Below, piece by piece: positions 2,504 through 27,780 of a DNA stretch of 64,000 nucleotides (position 1 is the first letter of the stretch; every line of letters begins with the position of its first letter). Under the pieces are notes generated by a model. That model ran no database searches, was not told where the DNA came from, and was given only the letters and a program-made list of their open reading frames with translations. Origin of the DNA: Cyanobium sp. M30B3 (GTDB lineage: Bacteria; Cyanobacteriota; Cyanobacteriia; PCC-6307; Cyanobiaceae); the NCBI GenBank assembly GCA_018399015.1, contig CP073761.1, positions 1,612,001 to 1,676,000 on the forward strand. The letters are read 5' to 3'. The position numbers and the translations under genes were made by a program.

Positions 2504-3541
2504 GTGCCCGAGGATGAACTGCAGCAACGCCGCACGATCAACCTCAAGCTTCCCGCTGAGCTGATCAGTCGCCTGGATGCCCTCAAGGGGGAATTCGGCC
2601 TGCGCAGCCGCGGCGCCATCGTGGAGCGGCTTCTCAATGAGCTGTTCAAACCCGAGGCTGCCGCCACCAGCGATGGCGAGGCCGCTGTTGCCGACCCACC
2701 GTCCGCCGCGGGTGAACCATCCGGAGCCTTCGACGAGCAGGGTGCCCTGGTGCTCGTGAGCCGGGGCGGCGGTGAGGAAGCCCAAGTGGATCTGGCCCTC
2801 CGGCGCGATCCGGCCGATTCCCAGGAGAGCGATCCGAGCCGGGCCGCCGGATCCCGGCCACGCGGAATCGATCTGCCCGGCTTCGTCCGCCGCCAGTCGG
2901 AACAGGTGCGGCGCAGCCTCCAGCCCCGACCACGCCCTGGGGCTGAGTCACTGGATCTGCTCCCCCAGATCCCGATCGAGCTGCTCGATCAGGCCCTGGA
3001 GCGGGTGAGGGGTCACTGGTTCGAGCTCTATGGCCAGTCAGCCAATGAAGCGGTGCTGGAGGCCGCGATGGTGTGGCTTGCGCAGGACATCTGGCCCCAG
3101 AGCGATCAGAGCGAGGGGCGCCCCTTCAGCTGGACGCTGGTGACGGAGGTGATGGCGAGCCTGGCGCCCTGCTGGCAACCCGGCCCCCCCTCCTTCGAGC
3201 GGGTGATGGTGGCCGCCGGACTCCTGGAGGATCCCTTCAGTGGCTCCACCCTGGTGGTGCGGCTGCCCACCCTGATCCGCCGCTTCGTGCATCGCTTCCG
3301 GCGTCGACGGGGGGCCTCATTCCAGACCCTGGAACACACCATGACCCTGCATGGGGCCCTGAAGCTGCTGAACCTGCCCACCACCCCAGGCCACCGACTC
3401 ACCCTGCCCCAGATCCGGGAGGCCTACCGGGAGCTGGCCCTGGCCCACCACCCCGATTCGGGCGGCACCGATGAAGGCATGCGTCGGCTGAATGAGGCCT
3501 ACCAGCTGCTCAAGGAGCTCTACCGCAGCCCCACAGCGTGA
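2504..3541 (+). CDS. Ribbon-helix-helix / J-domain fusion protein
   Basis: 345 residues from a GTG start 18 bases after the DUF3370 gene. Residues about 8-50 read as a ribbon-helix-helix DNA-binding fold: a short strand (RRTINLKLP) and two helices (AELISRLDALKGEFGL; SRGAIVERLLNELF). A low-complexity, Gly/Pro/Arg-rich linker follows to about residue 150. A helical middle region (ELLDQALERVRGHWFELYG) comes next, then a J domain at about 285-343 with the HPD motif at 316-318 (LALAHHPDSGGTDEGMRRL). J domains stimulate Hsp70 ATPase, so a role linking DnaK to a DNA-bound or oligomeric partner is possible. That is inference; the family has no function I can name. Confidence 0.75.
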   Translation: MPEDELQQRRTINLKLPAELISRLDALKGEFGLRSRGAIVERLLNELFKPEAAATSDGEAAVADPPSAAGEPSGAFDEQGALVLVSRGGGEEAQVDLALRRDPADSQESDPSRAAGSRPRGIDLPGFVRRQSEQVRRSLQPRPRPGAESLDLLPQIPIELLDQALERVRGHWFELYGQSANEAVLEAAMVWLAQDIWPQSDQSEGRPFSWTLVTEVMASLAPCWQPGPPSFERVMVAAGLLEDPFSGSTLVVRLPTLIRRFVHRFRRRRGASFQTLEHTMTLHGALKLLNLPTTPGHRLTLPQIREAYRELALAHHPDSGGTDEGMRRLNEAYQLLKELYRSPTA

Positions 3542-17840: not shown

Positions 17841-18989
17841 ATGGGATTGCAGAACTGGATCGGAACCTTCGGCAAGTCCCAGGGACTGCGGATCAGCCAG
17901 GACCTGGAACGGTCCTACGAGGCCGCCCTGCTGATCCAGAGCATTGAGCTGGAGCACTACAACGACCGGCCCGTCCGGCCAGAGGTCAATCTGCCCCTGC
18001 CCCGCTCCAGCCAGGCCCAGCTGCTGCGTCGCTTTCAGGCGGCCCTGGATGTGTGCCGCCAGTGCCTGCTGACGCTTGAGGCCCATCGCGCCCAGCTGGC
18101 GGGCCAGGAGCTTCGCCAGCTGCAGTTGGTGGAATCGGTGGTGGCCCGCTACGACAGGGCTGGCCGCAAACCTCTCCCGGCCATCAGCCGCTCACCGGAG
18201 GTGTTGCCGCGCAGTCTGATCGGCGTGGTGGATCAGGTGAGGCGTCAGCTGGATCCTGAAGCGGAAGCGGATGTGCTGGCGGGTTTCCGCCGCCGCAGGG
18301 ATTCCACCCTGGTGTCCCTGCGCATCCTGCTGCTGCTGATTCTGGTGCCTCTGCTGGTGCAGCAGATGAGCCGAAGCTATGTGATGGGACCGCTGGTGGA
18401 TCGCTATGCCCCGGTGAGTGCCTTCATCAGCTACCCCAAGCCCCATCTGGAGGAAAAGGCCGTGGAAAAGCTGAGGGTGTTCAAGGCCGAGGTCGAGTTC
18501 GCTGCCCTGCTGGAGGGCAAACCGCTGCCCAGCCCTGAGGAACTGCAACGGCAACTGGCCGATCGAGCCCAGGAACTCAAGCAGGAAGCAGACAGTGAAA
18601 GTACTGAGGCCATCAAGAATGTGCTCGCTGACATCGCAGCAGTTGCGGGCTTTGTGGTTGTGTGCATTGTCGGAAAGCGCGACATCCAGGTCCTACGTGG
18701 CTTTATCGATGAATTGATCTATGGTCTCAGTGATAGCGCCAAGGCATTTGCGATCATCTTGTTCACCGATATCTTTGTCGGCTTTCATAGCCCCGAGGGC
18801 TGGACGGTTCTCCTGGATGGTGTTGCCAATCACCTTGGCTTGCCGGCAAGGGAAAACTTCATCATGTTGTTCATCGCCACCTTTCCTGTGGTTCTGGCAA
18901 CCATCTTCAAGTACTGGATCTTCCGCTATCTCAACCGCGTGTCTCCCTCCTCTGTGGCGACCCTGCGCAATATGAATGGGGGTGGCTGA
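17841..18989 (+). CDS. pxcA: Proton extrusion protein PxcA (CemA family)
   Basis: Integral membrane protein of 382 residues required in Synechocystis for light-driven proton export and acclimation of CO2 uptake. The N-terminal 150 residues are soluble (EHYNDRPVRPEV is a family motif). Four hydrophobic segments follow: LRILLLLILVPLLVQQM, IAAVAGFVVVCIVG, KAFAIILFTDIFVGFHSPEG and LFIATFPVVLATIFKYWIF, as in chloroplast CemA. The GFHSPEGW signature is diagnostic. It lies directly behind psb32. A GC drop is visible in the last third of the gene (18600-18930). Confidence 0.9.
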   Translation: MGLQNWIGTFGKSQGLRISQDLERSYEAALLIQSIELEHYNDRPVRPEVNLPLPRSSQAQLLRRFQAALDVCRQCLLTLEAHRAQLAGQELRQLQLVESVVARYDRAGRKPLPAISRSPEVLPRSLIGVVDQVRRQLDPEAEADVLAGFRRRRDSTLVSLRILLLLILVPLLVQQMSRSYVMGPLVDRYAPVSAFISYPKPHLEEKAVEKLRVFKAEVEFAALLEGKPLPSPEELQRQLADRAQELKQEADSESTEAIKNVLADIAAVAGFVVVCIVGKRDIQVLRGFIDELIYGLSDSAKAFAIILFTDIFVGFHSPEGWTVLLDGVANHLGLPARENFIMLFIATFPVVLATIFKYWIFRYLNRVSPSSVATLRNMNGGG

Positions 18990-19044
18990 TCGGCAGATCC
19001 CAGCCCCCTTGGCAGGCTTGGCTGCTCCCTCAGCAACCTCCGGC

Positions 19045-19590
19045 ATGGCCCTGGCCCTCGAACTGATCACAGGTCCTGCCCGATGCGGCAAGAGTCGCTG
19101 GGCCGAGCACCGCGCCGCCCGTTCAGGTCAGCGGGTGCGTTACCTCGCCACCGGGCCCCTGCTGCCCGACGACCCCGACTGGCAGGACCGCCTGCGGCGC
19201 CATCGCCTGCGCCGGCCCGCCGACTGGCTCTGTGAAGACGTGGGCCTGGCCTTGCCGGCAGCGCTCGGGCAGCTCAGCGCCGGGGACATCGCCCTGGTGG
19301 ATTCGCTCGGCACCTGGGTGAGCGCCGGACTCGATCTCGATGGCAGCAACTGGCTCGAGCACACCGAGAGGTTTCTCACCAGCCTGAGCCGCTGCCGCGG
19401 CAGGGTGTTGCTGGTGAGCGAACAGGTGGGCTGGGGCGTGGTGCCTCCCACGGCCATCGGCGGGCGGTTCCGCGACCGCCTCGGCAGCCTGGAAGAGCTG
19501 ATCACCCCCCACTGCCAGCATCTCTGGCTGGTGGTCGCCGGCCGGGCCCTCGACCTGCTGCCGATCACGGAACCCGTCCCGCCCGAGTGA
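19045..19590 (+). CDS. cobU: Adenosylcobinamide kinase / adenosylcobinamide-phosphate guanylyltransferase
   Basis: Bifunctional enzyme of the lower-loop assembly of cobalamin: it phosphorylates adenosylcobinamide and then transfers GMP to it. The 181 residues start at ATG 19045. The P-loop is GPARCGKSRWAE near residue 10, and the RRHRLRRPADW region corresponds to the loop bearing the guanylylated histidine. VDSLGTWVSAGL and VSEQVGWGVVPP are further family signatures. The stop codon lies immediately ahead of trmL. Picocyanobacteria make pseudocobalamin, so the product here may be that variant. Confidence 0.9.
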   Translation: MALALELITGPARCGKSRWAEHRAARSGQRVRYLATGPLLPDDPDWQDRLRRHRLRRPADWLCEDVGLALPAALGQLSAGDIALVDSLGTWVSAGLDLDGSNWLEHTERFLTSLSRCRGRVLLVSEQVGWGVVPPTAIGGRFRDRLGSLEELITPHCQHLWLVVAGRALDLLPITEPVPPE

Positions 19591-25357: not shown

Positions 25358-26452
25358 TCAGCCGGAGACGCCCGCAGCTGTTCGGCTGAGGCCGCTCAGG
25401 GCTGCCGACAGCACCTCTCGCTGCAAATTGAATCCCAGCAGCACCAGCTCCAACCCGGGGGGACGGGGCGCGGCGGCATCGCTGGCGAACCAGCTCTCCA
25501 GGCGCGGGCCCACCGCCTGGATCTCCAGGGGCCGCGCCTTGCCCTGCAGCCAGAGCCTGCCCTTGACACGCACCAGGTGGTGGTCGCGGATCAGCTGCAG
25601 CACGGCCTGCTCCAGGCTGGGGCGGTCGAGTTCGCCCGTGAGCCGCACCACCTGCGCCTCGATCGCCACATGGCTGTGGTCGTGATGCCCGTGGTCGTGA
25701 TGCCCGTGGTCGTGATGGCTGTGGTCCGCTGAAGCCGTGTCGTGGCCGCTGGTCGCCAGGCCGATCACCAGCTGCGGGTCGATGGCGCCACGCACCAGGG
25801 GCAGCACGGCCGTTCCAGGCCGGATCAGGGGCAGGACGCGCTGGCGCACGGACTCGATCTGCTCTCCGTTCACCTGGTCGGCCCGGCTGAGCAGCACCAG
25901 ATCGGCACACTCCAGCTGCTCGGCGAACAGTTCGTCCAGGGCAGTGACATGGTCGAGGCTCGGGTCCGCCAGCCGCTGCGCGTCCAGGGCGGCGCGGTCG
26001 CCCACCACCGCCCCCTGGGCCAGGGCTTCGGCGTCCACCAGCGTGACCACGCCGTTCACCCAGATGCGGCTGCGGATCTCCGGCCACTGGAAGGCGGCCA
26101 GCAGGGGCTCCGGCAGGGCCAGACCACTGGTCTCCACCAGAATTCCATCCAACTGGTGGGCCCGTTGCAGCAGGGTCTGCATGGTGGGCAGGAAGTCGTC
26201 CTGCACCGTGCAGCACAGGCAGCCGTTGGCCAGCTCCAGCACCCGGCCCTCGATCTCCTCCTCGGGGCAGAAGCCGCAGCTGCGCAGCAGATCGCCGTCA
26301 ATCCCCACCTCCCCGAACTCATTCACCAGTACCGCCAGGCGCTGACCGGATTGCAGCAGCAGGTGGCGCAGCAGGGTGGTTTTGCCGGCACCGAGAAACC
26401 CGGTGATCACCGTCACCGGCAGCCGCCCACTGGCGGCAGGTTGGCTCAGCAT
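25358..26452 (-). CDS. CobW-family GTP-binding metallochaperone
   Basis: G3E-family GTPase of 364 residues, start ATG 26452. The P-loop is GFLGAGKTTLL (about 18-28). The metal-binding CxCC motif GCLCC is at 77-81, and LVLLSRADQ is the NKxD-like guanine site in a changed form. A histidine-aspartate-rich insert (about 243-262, repeating HHDHG) should bind divalent metal. A C-terminal CobW domain follows. The start is one base after the hupE stop. The riboswitch upstream of this pair argues for a role in cobalt delivery to cobalamin rather than zinc homeostasis. Confidence 0.88.
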   Translation of the reverse strand: MLSQPAASGRLPVTVITGFLGAGKTTLLRHLLLQSGQRLAVLVNEFGEVGIDGDLLRSCGFCPEEEIEGRVLELANGCLCCTVQDDFLPTMQTLLQRAHQLDGILVETSGLALPEPLLAAFQWPEIRSRIWVNGVVTLVDAEALAQGAVVGDRAALDAQRLADPSLDHVTALDELFAEQLECADLVLLSRADQVNGEQIESVRQRVLPLIRPGTAVLPLVRGAIDPQLVIGLATSGHDTASADHSHHDHGHHDHGHHDHSHVAIEAQVVRLTGELDRPSLEQAVLQLIRDHHLVRVKGRLWLQGKARPLEIQAVGPRLESWFASDAAAPRPPGLELVLLGFNLQREVLSAALSGLSRTAAGVSG

Positions 26453-26453
26453 G

Positions 26454-27074
26454 TCAGCCCAGCTCCGTGGCCAGGGCCAGCACCAGGGAGGTGCCCACCA
26501 GCCCCAGGCCAAACCAGCGGCGGCCAGGCCTGGTCAGCCGCTCCGCCAGGGGGCGTAGAACCTGCAGGGCCAGCAGCAGCAGCGCACCCTGGCTGATCAG
26601 CAGCCCCACGAGGTAGCTGAGCAGGGGCATGGTGGTCCAGCCCAGAACCGCCTCGCTGAGCACATAGCCATGCAGGGCCATGGCGGGCACCACCAGCACC
26701 GCGGGCAGCCGGCCCAGCAGCACCCCACCCACGAGGGCCAGGGTGGCTGCCACGAGCAGTTCTGCCTGGGGCAGACCGGGCAACACCAGGCCGGCGGCGC
26801 TGCCCGCCAGCCCCACGGTGAGCAGCAGGAGCATCCAGCGGCTGCGCTGTTGCAGACCAAGCAGGGACAGGGCCAACAGGAAGAGCAGGTGATCCGGGCC
26901 GATCACGGGGTGGGCCAGGCCGCTGAGCAGCCCGTTGACGACCGTGGGCTGCAGCCCCGTGAGCTCAACGACATGGTGGGCATGGGCCGGTGCCTGGCTG
27001 AGGCCGGCAAGGCACAGCAATCCTGTGGGCGCGGCAAGGGCGAGGGCCCGGCCGCGAACTGAAGCTGAAATCAT
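26454..27074 (-). CDS. hupE: HupE/UreJ-family metal permease
   Basis: Small integral membrane transporter of nickel or cobalt, 206 residues from ATG 27074. It has a signal-like first segment ending in APAHAHH and six hydrophobic helices. The family signature HPVIGPDHLLFLLAL (HPxxGxDH, metal-selecting) is intact. A second histidine, in ALHGYVLSEA, is also family-typical. A cobalamin riboswitch covers its leader, so cobalt uptake is the best inference; nickel uptake is less likely in this context. It forms an operon with cobW. Confidence 0.88.
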   Translation of the reverse strand: MISASVRGRALALAAPTGLLCLAGLSQAPAHAHHVVELTGLQPTVVNGLLSGLAHPVIGPDHLLFLLALSLLGLQQRSRWMLLLLTVGLAGSAAGLVLPGLPQAELLVAATLALVGGVLLGRLPAVLVVPAMALHGYVLSEAVLGWTTMPLLSYLVGLLISQGALLLLALQVLRPLAERLTRPGRRWFGLGLVGTSLVLALATELG

Positions 27075-27094
27075 GGAGAACGGTCCGCGCCGAA

Positions 27095-27250
27095 GGTGAA
27101 CTGAGCCGGCGGGCGTTCTGACTGGAGCGGCCTGACCGCTCTTCAGCGGGCAGACCACTCTTCACAGCTGCGGGACAGTGCCGGAATCCCACCGGTCTTT
27201 CCCCGTTGCCTCCGGTGGCTGATCCCCACCGGAACCGGTGCTCGCATCGT
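27095..27250 (-). promoter_or_regulatory. Cobalamin (B12) riboswitch controlling hupE-cobW
   Basis: Reading the minus strand, the leader contains the core GGGAAAGACCGGTGGGATTC with CCGGCACTGTCCCGC and GCTGTGA, then the B12 box CCAGTCAGAACGCCCGCC (27108-27125). These elements occur in the order and spacing of the AdoCbl/MeCbl riboswitch. The end of the box lies about 35 bases before the hupE ATG, so control of translation initiation is more likely than of termination. The outer limits are approximate. Confidence 0.9.
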
Positions 27251-27264
27251 ATCCGTGGATGCCG

Positions 27265-27780
27265 TCAGCGGCAGCCGAGGCTGTCGCGGGTGCCCACACC
27301 GGTGAACGGATTGCTGCCGGAGGCCCTGGCGCAGAGAGCCTTCTGCTCCGGCAGATCGAGCACCGCATCGGTGAAATCGGCACCGTCGATCACCGCATCG
27401 CGGAAACGGCTCTGCATCAACATCCCGTTGGCCAGGCGGGCATTGCTCAGATCACTGCCCTGGAAGCGGGTGGCGTAGGCCACCACGTCCTCGAGGTTGG
27501 CCCCGCGCAGATTGGCTCCCTCCAGATCGGAGCCATTGAACACGGCCCCGCGCAGATCCGCGTCGCTGAAGTCGTAGCCCGCCAGGGGGGCCTTGAGAAA
27601 TTCGGCCTGCTGGAGGTTGCGGCCATGCATGTCGGGCTGGAGGTCCTGCAGAGCGCGCTGGCCGCGCAGCTCGGGGGCCGTGATCGCCTCGGCCGGAGGC
27701 TGCCACAGGAACAGGGACAGCACGGCGATCAGTCCGGCCCACAGGCAGCAGAGCTTCAGGCGGGGCAAGGGGCGGGCCAT
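27265..27780 (-). CDS. Exported pentapeptide-repeat protein
   Basis: 171 residues with a signal peptide (LWAGLIAVLSLFLWQPPAEA, cleaved before ITAPEL). About 16 pentapeptide repeats of the A(D/N)LxX type follow (DLRGAVFNGSDLEGANLRGA), which fold as a right-handed quadrilateral beta helix. The C-terminal tail has two cysteines (KALCARASG ... LGCR) that could form a disulfide, as in thylakoid-lumen proteins such as TL17. A lumenal or periplasmic location is inferred. It diverges from the UPRTase-like gene. Confidence 0.8.
   Translation of the reverse strand: MARPLPRLKLCCLWAGLIAVLSLFLWQPPAEAITAPELRGQRALQDLQPDMHGRNLQQAEFLKAPLAGYDFSDADLRGAVFNGSDLEGANLRGANLEDVVAYATRFQGSDLSNARLANGMLMQSRFRDAVIDGADFTDAVLDLPEQKALCARASGSNPFTGVGTRDSLGCR

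Follow-up and report, generated by a model that had tools for sequence, protein, structure and literature searches.

Passages of two reviews place hupE of (marine) cyanobacteria behind a B12 riboswitch and regard its product as a probable cobalt importer, and they describe a Synechocystis hupE mutant that could be rescued with either cobalt or methionine (PMC4284471, PMC7689651). CobW is presented there as supplying CobNST with cobalt (PMC7689651), and a metagenome survey records cobW, hupE, cobU and a desaturase gene behind B12 elements (PMC2211319). According to a passage of Haas et al. 2009, cyanobacterial cobW neither lies in a cluster with genes of B12 synthesis nor comes under the control of a B12 riboswitch (PMC2770081). 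A single table of changed genes in Acaryochloris includes both AM1_5965 (UreJ-HupE) and AM1_5964 (CobW), with values of 3.40 and 2.82 (PMC11633204), and for a cobalamin riboswitch of Anabaena, cobalt-dependent control and large mRNA changes have been described (PMC10878165). Our search of the open-access literature (titles, abstracts, and passages) found no description of a riboswitch-hupE-cobW operon in cyanobacteria.

Here, we analyzed such a locus in a stretch of 64,000 nucleotides from Cyanobium sp. M30B3 (referred to as the window). Like the hupE of marine cyanobacteria, it holds, behind a B12 riboswitch, a HupE/UreJ permease that can be read as a cobalt importer, but here the permease gene is followed by a cobW recognized by TIGR02475 and the riboswitch is preceded by a pentapeptide gene (compare passages of PMC4284471 and PMC7689651). 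With the proteobacterial B12-riboswitch cobW operons described in part of PMC2770081 it shares a true CobW in a B12-regulated cluster, whereas here cobW follows riboswitch and hupE, and cobN is not adjacent. The CbiMNQO cobalt ECF transporter likewise places cobalt import under a cobalamin riboswitch, but CbiMNQO and HupE belong to unrelated transporter families, and CbiM was not found in this genome.

A cobalamin riboswitch leads hupE and cobW

The first-pass annotation, made from the sequence alone, had proposed a B12 riboswitch core ahead of hupE with its B12 box at 27108-27125, and suggested a covariance search. When the whole window was scanned with cmscan, the Cobalamin model (RF00174), the best family of its Rfam clan, matched at 27251-27091 on the minus strand over its full length (model positions 1-189), scoring 56.8 bits (gathering score 31.5; E value 1.9e-11), which confirms the riboswitch. 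Both the conserved core and the B12 box are present in this match, and the position proposed for the box was correct, the minus strand reading CCAGUCAGAACGCC at 27125-27112 in the sequence and in the cmscan alignment. The gene order on the minus strand is pentapeptide-repeat gene (27265-27780; PF00805, E value 3.1e-15), riboswitch, hupE (26454-27074), and cobW (25358-26452), all codirectional. Thirteen bases separate the stop codon of the pentapeptide gene from the Rfam match, 16 bases separate the end of the aptamer from the hupE ATG, and the gap between the hupE stop and the cobW start is a single base.

The gene names given at first reading hold as well. The permease matches HupE_UreJ (PF04955) with 62.7 bits (cutoff of 23; E value 4.1e-17), and its translation carries the HupE/UreJ signature HPxxGxDH (as given in a passage of PMC7689651) in the form HPVIGPDH. 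The GTPase, described as a His-rich CobW, matches the Pfam cobW (PF02492; E value 4.6e-50) and CobW_C (E value 1.3e-13) models, its translation has the CxCC motif as CLCC together with the His-rich stretch HSHHDHGHHDHGHHDHSH, and it passes the TIGR02475 equivalog model with 361 bits against a curated cutoff of 332.1. Its nearest relatives in named genomes, among the best 80 of 548 loci, come from Cyanobium, Synechococcus, and Vulcanococcus. The cobU gene noted near 19.0 kb is found at 18976-19590 on the plus strand (PF02283, E value 3.8e-44), separated from cobW by 5.8 kb and from the riboswitch by 7.5 kb; lying on the opposite strand, it is a pathway neighbor outside the hupE-cobW operon.

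The genome (G000) is a single contig of 3.18 Mb with one further RF00174 match, at C1:1071188-1071390 on the minus strand (locus L002, 42.7 bits), which also lies 5' of a HupE gene. This second HupE is diverged, and its riboswitch stands downstream of a COG0523 paralog and of a neighboring gene that, from its translation, appears Fur/Zur-like. The paralog fails the TIGR02475 cutoff with 170.8 bits, and its best NCBIfam match, also below cutoff, is ZigA. Elsewhere in the genome, the CobN cobaltochelatase is encoded at C1:1597640-1600921 (TIGR02257, 1,471.7 bits against a cutoff of 822), about 36 kb from cobW. Since the corresponding passage of PMC2770081 has cobW adjoining cobN "in the majority of cases" only, we regard this adjacency as usual rather than defining for CobW. 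The genome also holds a B12-dependent methionine synthase (MetH) domain, and the genome search did not find MetE, suggesting that B12 made with cobalt is probably needed for methionine.

Across the family, the riboswitch accompanies the permease gene

We compared the locus with a family of genomes that we take, from the nearest CobW relatives, to be the Cyanobiaceae. For 61 of its 79 listed RF00174 matches, a listed HupE gene follows on the same strand within 400 bases; of the other 18, a HupE profile built in this work showed 13 to have HupE downstream, so that 74 of the 79 listed matches precede HupE. Among the last five, two precede CbiM, one runs off its contig, one lies 194 bases 5' of a frame for a fatty acid desaturase, and in one no HupE lies within the stretch. 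This last riboswitch (L184 of genome G085, 3001-3151, minus strand) scores above the Rfam cutoff and is followed after 284 bases by the start of an OprB porin frame; hupE may perhaps have been lost downstream of it. In two genomes of the group, a cobalamin riboswitch occurs about 200 bases 5' of a fatty acid desaturase frame, at L194 (3001-3175, minus strand) and at L286 (1501-1675, plus strand). Riboswitch-cbiM arrangements occur in G006, G065, and SynAce01, where one of three RF00174 matches precedes cbiM.

Seen from the permease, 61 of 109 listed HupE matches have a listed riboswitch. After removal of three matches shorter than 120 amino acids and rescanning with cmscan of 47 loci without a listed riboswitch, this becomes 72 of 106, or 73 if L078 is included. 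In a tree of these HupE sequences, the riboswitch is found in 24 of 25 members of the window's clade, in 29 of 32 of a second clade, in none of the 12 of another, and in 19 of the remaining 37, which contain a subclade with none in 8. For L078, the one exception in the window's clade, the DNA is identical to that of L284 where the two overlap, and there a match of 39.9 bits is obtained, making the clade 25 of 25; the fast filters of cmscan thus missed at least one riboswitch. Several HupE genes scored as riboswitch-less show pieces of a B12 box and the leader hairpin described below, so that all these counts are lower bounds. Four loci (L080, L281, L282, and L283) carry a back-to-back pair of riboswitch-hupE units whose divergent riboswitches are about 50 bases apart.

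A nickel setting was considered for the strong HupE clade without the riboswitch and was rejected: the locus examined, L071 of G002 (one of 8), holds on our reading further HupE-like genes but neither urease nor hydrogenase, and we therefore claim no metal for this clade.

Control of cobW would depend on gene order

CobW is encoded within 200 bases after riboswitch and hupE at 24 of the 61 listed loci; in each of these 24, a codirectional pentapeptide gene stands upstream. At the other 37, neither CobW nor the pentapeptide gene was found, although at 4 of the 61 loci fewer than 600 bases lie downstream, so that there the absence of cobW is no proof. A search of GTDB genomes for CobW gave 548 loci, of which we retained the best 80. 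At 21 of these 80, the pentapeptide gene precedes cobW, and the two classes separate cleanly: with hupE between the two genes, the riboswitch is present in 13 of 13, and where hupE was not found, as in Synechococcus sp. SynAce01, in 0 of 8, the eight gaps of 46 to 188 bases showing no riboswitch core motif. Seven of these eight genomes hold a riboswitch elsewhere, and among the 12 such loci listed, HupE follows the riboswitch in 10, CbiM in 1, and in 1 a fatty acid desaturase frame begins about 200 bases downstream; back-to-back riboswitch-hupE pairs occur in three of these genomes. G058 and G084 share contigs with GTDB genomes of the 21-locus count, and therefore the two genome sets overlap.

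Taken together, the split of 13 of 13 versus 0 of 8 and the riboswitch loci elsewhere in these genomes argue that the riboswitch goes with the permease rather than the chaperone, and hence that control of cobW would be a feature of the gene order in this lineage. The best 80 loci include 27 further ones with cyanobacterial titles, of which 13 were scanned: a riboswitch lies upstream of cobW in 7, with hupE recognized in between in 4. At L250 the riboswitch is directly 5' of cobW, and at L224 and L225 no HupE-like frame was found between the two. A record titled Bifidobacterium breve (L212) carries the cyanobacterial pentapeptide-riboswitch-hupE-cobW locus, and this metagenome-assembled genome is for that reason probably mislabeled.

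Cobalt is the favored metal

The first reading had taken the pair for a cobalt uptake and delivery system in spite of names that suggest nickel or hydrogenase. As a prediction, this is supported by the CobW above the TIGR02475 cutoff, by CobN, and by MetH in the apparent absence of MetE. It gains further support from the relatives in which riboswitch-cbiM takes the place of riboswitch-hupE and from the published work on Synechocystis hupE. The family data also favor cobalt over nickel, given that 74 of the 79 listed riboswitches precede HupE and 2 precede cbiM.

Metal selectivity is nevertheless the main doubt, because the genome encodes a urease (C1:28007-28360, locus L070) and no other recognized Ni/Co permease turned up in the families searched. 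HupE could thus carry nickel, or nickel as well as cobalt, with the B12 riboswitch gating both. We found neither a NicO/NiCoT nor a CbiM-family protein in the genome, and UreH/SodT was rejected as a separate nickel importer since the lone PF13386 match sits in a protein that, judging from the translations, resembles CcdA and is encoded next to a ccsB-like gene. The two HupEs are accordingly the sole recognized Ni/Co permeases among the NicO, CbiM, PF13386, and HupE_UreJ families. Against this reading, however, a B12 riboswitch precedes each of the two HupE genes, a CobW above the equivalog cutoff shares the operon with hupE, riboswitch-cbiM replaces riboswitch-hupE in some relatives, and Synechocystis HupE fails to replace the nickel importer of that organism according to a passage of PMC5904137. 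We therefore consider nickel transport by HupE unlikely and retain cobalt as its probable metal.

A broader reading, which is tentative and which we would sooner doubt than defend, joins two of these points. The riboswitch and the cobalt permease gene may behave as one movable unit in the family: placed between the pentapeptide gene and cobW, the unit would bring the chaperone under B12 control, and elsewhere it would stand alone, stand back to back with a second riboswitch-hupE unit, or be replaced by riboswitch-cbiM. On the same reading, B12 status may also throttle the nickel supply, because both recognized Ni/Co permeases lie behind B12 riboswitches while urease is kept and no other importer was found.

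The transcript probably starts at the aptamer

A likely -10 promoter element, TACGAT (27246-27251, minus strand), lies directly 5' of the aptamer. Among 78 leaders of the family (one of the 79 lacked the anchor and was omitted), 53 show the pattern TANNNT 14 to 23 bases 5' of the GGTT in the aptamer, compared with 11.1 expected after local shuffling and with 2, 4, and 8 leaders in the next three windows upstream. This conserved -10-like element suggests that the riboswitch probably starts its own transcript; as a scan of 26400-27400 for the two-box σ70 consensus found no promoter, it is on the conserved -10 box that the promoter call is based.

The riboswitch could instead lie inside a longer pentapeptide-hupE-cobW transcript and act mainly as an internal valve. 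The absence of a consensus promoter in that scan fits such an arrangement, as do the 13 bases between pentapeptide gene and aptamer in the window and the presence of the pentapeptide gene, upstream and codirectional, at all 24 riboswitch-hupE-cobW loci. The -10-like element, however, abuts the aptamer in the 53 of 78 leaders counted above, some of them without a pentapeptide neighbor, and 37 of the 61 riboswitch-hupE loci have no pentapeptide gene. We consider the internal valve unlikely. The pentapeptide gene is conserved beside cobW, and nothing links its own control to the riboswitch.

A hairpin complementary to L5 overlies the ribosome-binding region

In the translational cobalamin riboswitches of E. 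coli btuB and env8HyCbl, an L5-L13 kissing loop governs a hairpin at the ribosome-binding site (part of PMC10653944). The leader in the window is similarly built. Its P13-L13 hairpin, CGG-CGCGGA-CCG, occupies 27081-27092 (minus strand), with the loop at 27089-27084, so that the loop ends 9 bases and the stem 6 bases 5' of the hupE ATG. The L5 loop UCCCG (27171-27175, minus strand), which equals the L5 consensus given in PMC10653944, is complementary to the L13 loop CGCGGA over five pairs (U-A, C-G, C-G, C-G, and G-C) with one bulged C; a bulge in L13 is likewise described for env8 in part of PMC10653944. The L13 loops of the family leaders (CGAGGA, CGCGGA, or CGUGGA) themselves overlap the ribosome-binding region. 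A pairing between a GGUGAAA loop and a UUCAC stretch was also considered and was dropped, since the L5 consensus UCCCG fits the conserved hairpin loop better.

Both partners are conserved. In 92 family leaders (79 listed and 13 from rescanning, all related sequences and not independent events), UCCCG is kept in 91, and 86 have a hairpin in which three or more stem pairs enclose the loop CGNGGA, where dinucleotide shuffles would give 0.98. The P13 stem covaries, with the closing pair being GC in 50 and AT in 36 leaders and the fourth pair CG in 41, TA in 27, TG in 1, and AT in 1. The six leaders without the hairpin are the cbiM leaders of G065 and G006 (L193), two with CUCGGA (L081 of G079 and L084 of G030), one with CGAGGUA (L089 of G043), and the drifting leader of G039, where both UCCCG and the hairpin loop are lost. 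In this last genome, the riboswitch 5' of hupE (L165, 1283-1430, plus strand) appears to be decaying, with B12 box, L5, and L13 all drifted. Complementarity and family conservation thus point to a putative L5-L13 kissing loop.

The loop is not equally suited to ribosome binding in all leaders. CGAGGA, a good ribosome-binding sequence, is found in 37 of the 86 hairpin leaders, and the CGCGGA of the window is a weak one that holds just the GGA of such a site. Folding without ligand or pseudoknot, carried out for 75 of the 79 leaders (those without an exact CGNGGA being left out), pairs the L13 loop mostly elsewhere (mean of 0.63) and rarely forms the P13 hairpin (mean of 0.10, and 0.00 in the window). 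The case for P13-L13 is thus a comparative one, as energy-based folding fails to support the hairpin. In the best fold of the window's leader, the B12 box pairs with bases 5' of the ATG, so that the leader may not be open even in the absence of ligand; across the 75 leaders, this pairing has a mean of 0.19 and is no general feature.

Control by transcription termination, for which a terminator role postulated for the cobalamin riboswitch of Synechococcus PCC 7002 and the large mRNA changes in Anabaena could be cited (both from passages of PMC10878165), is the least probable alternative, since a terminator scan of 26400-27400 found no site (0.3 expected in shuffles) and the conserved hairpin over the ribosome-binding region has a loop complementary to L5.

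Discussion

The description of this locus as a canonical B12 riboswitch followed by a pair for cobalt uptake and delivery is well supported. We favor, with a probability of roughly 0.8, the reading that a repressing cobalamin riboswitch leads a two-gene cobalt supply operon, hupE-cobW, by means of a translational L5-L13 switch. Transcription would most likely start at the promoter abutting the aptamer. With enough adenosylated cobamide, the aptamer would bind this ligand, and L5 (UCCCG) would pair with L13 (CGCGGA), hiding the ribosome-binding region and lowering the synthesis of HupE; through translational coupling across the one-base gap, less CobW would be made as well. When B12 falls, the kissing loop would open, HupE (the predicted cobalt importer) would bring in cobalt, and CobW, as predicted cobalt chaperone, would hand it to the CobN chelatase.

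The link between riboswitch and hupE was already known, and this scheme fits the known one in which cells with enough B12 stop importing cobalt. What our analysis may add is modest: the extension to cobW, the possible movable unit, and the putative kissing loop over the ribosome-binding region, which would be a compact control design. The riboswitch-hupE-cobW loci go against the statement on cyanobacterial cobW quoted above from PMC2770081. The prediction for these abundant small cyanobacteria is that, with plentiful B12, they would shut off the import of cobalt and, in some lineages, the synthesis of its chaperone too.
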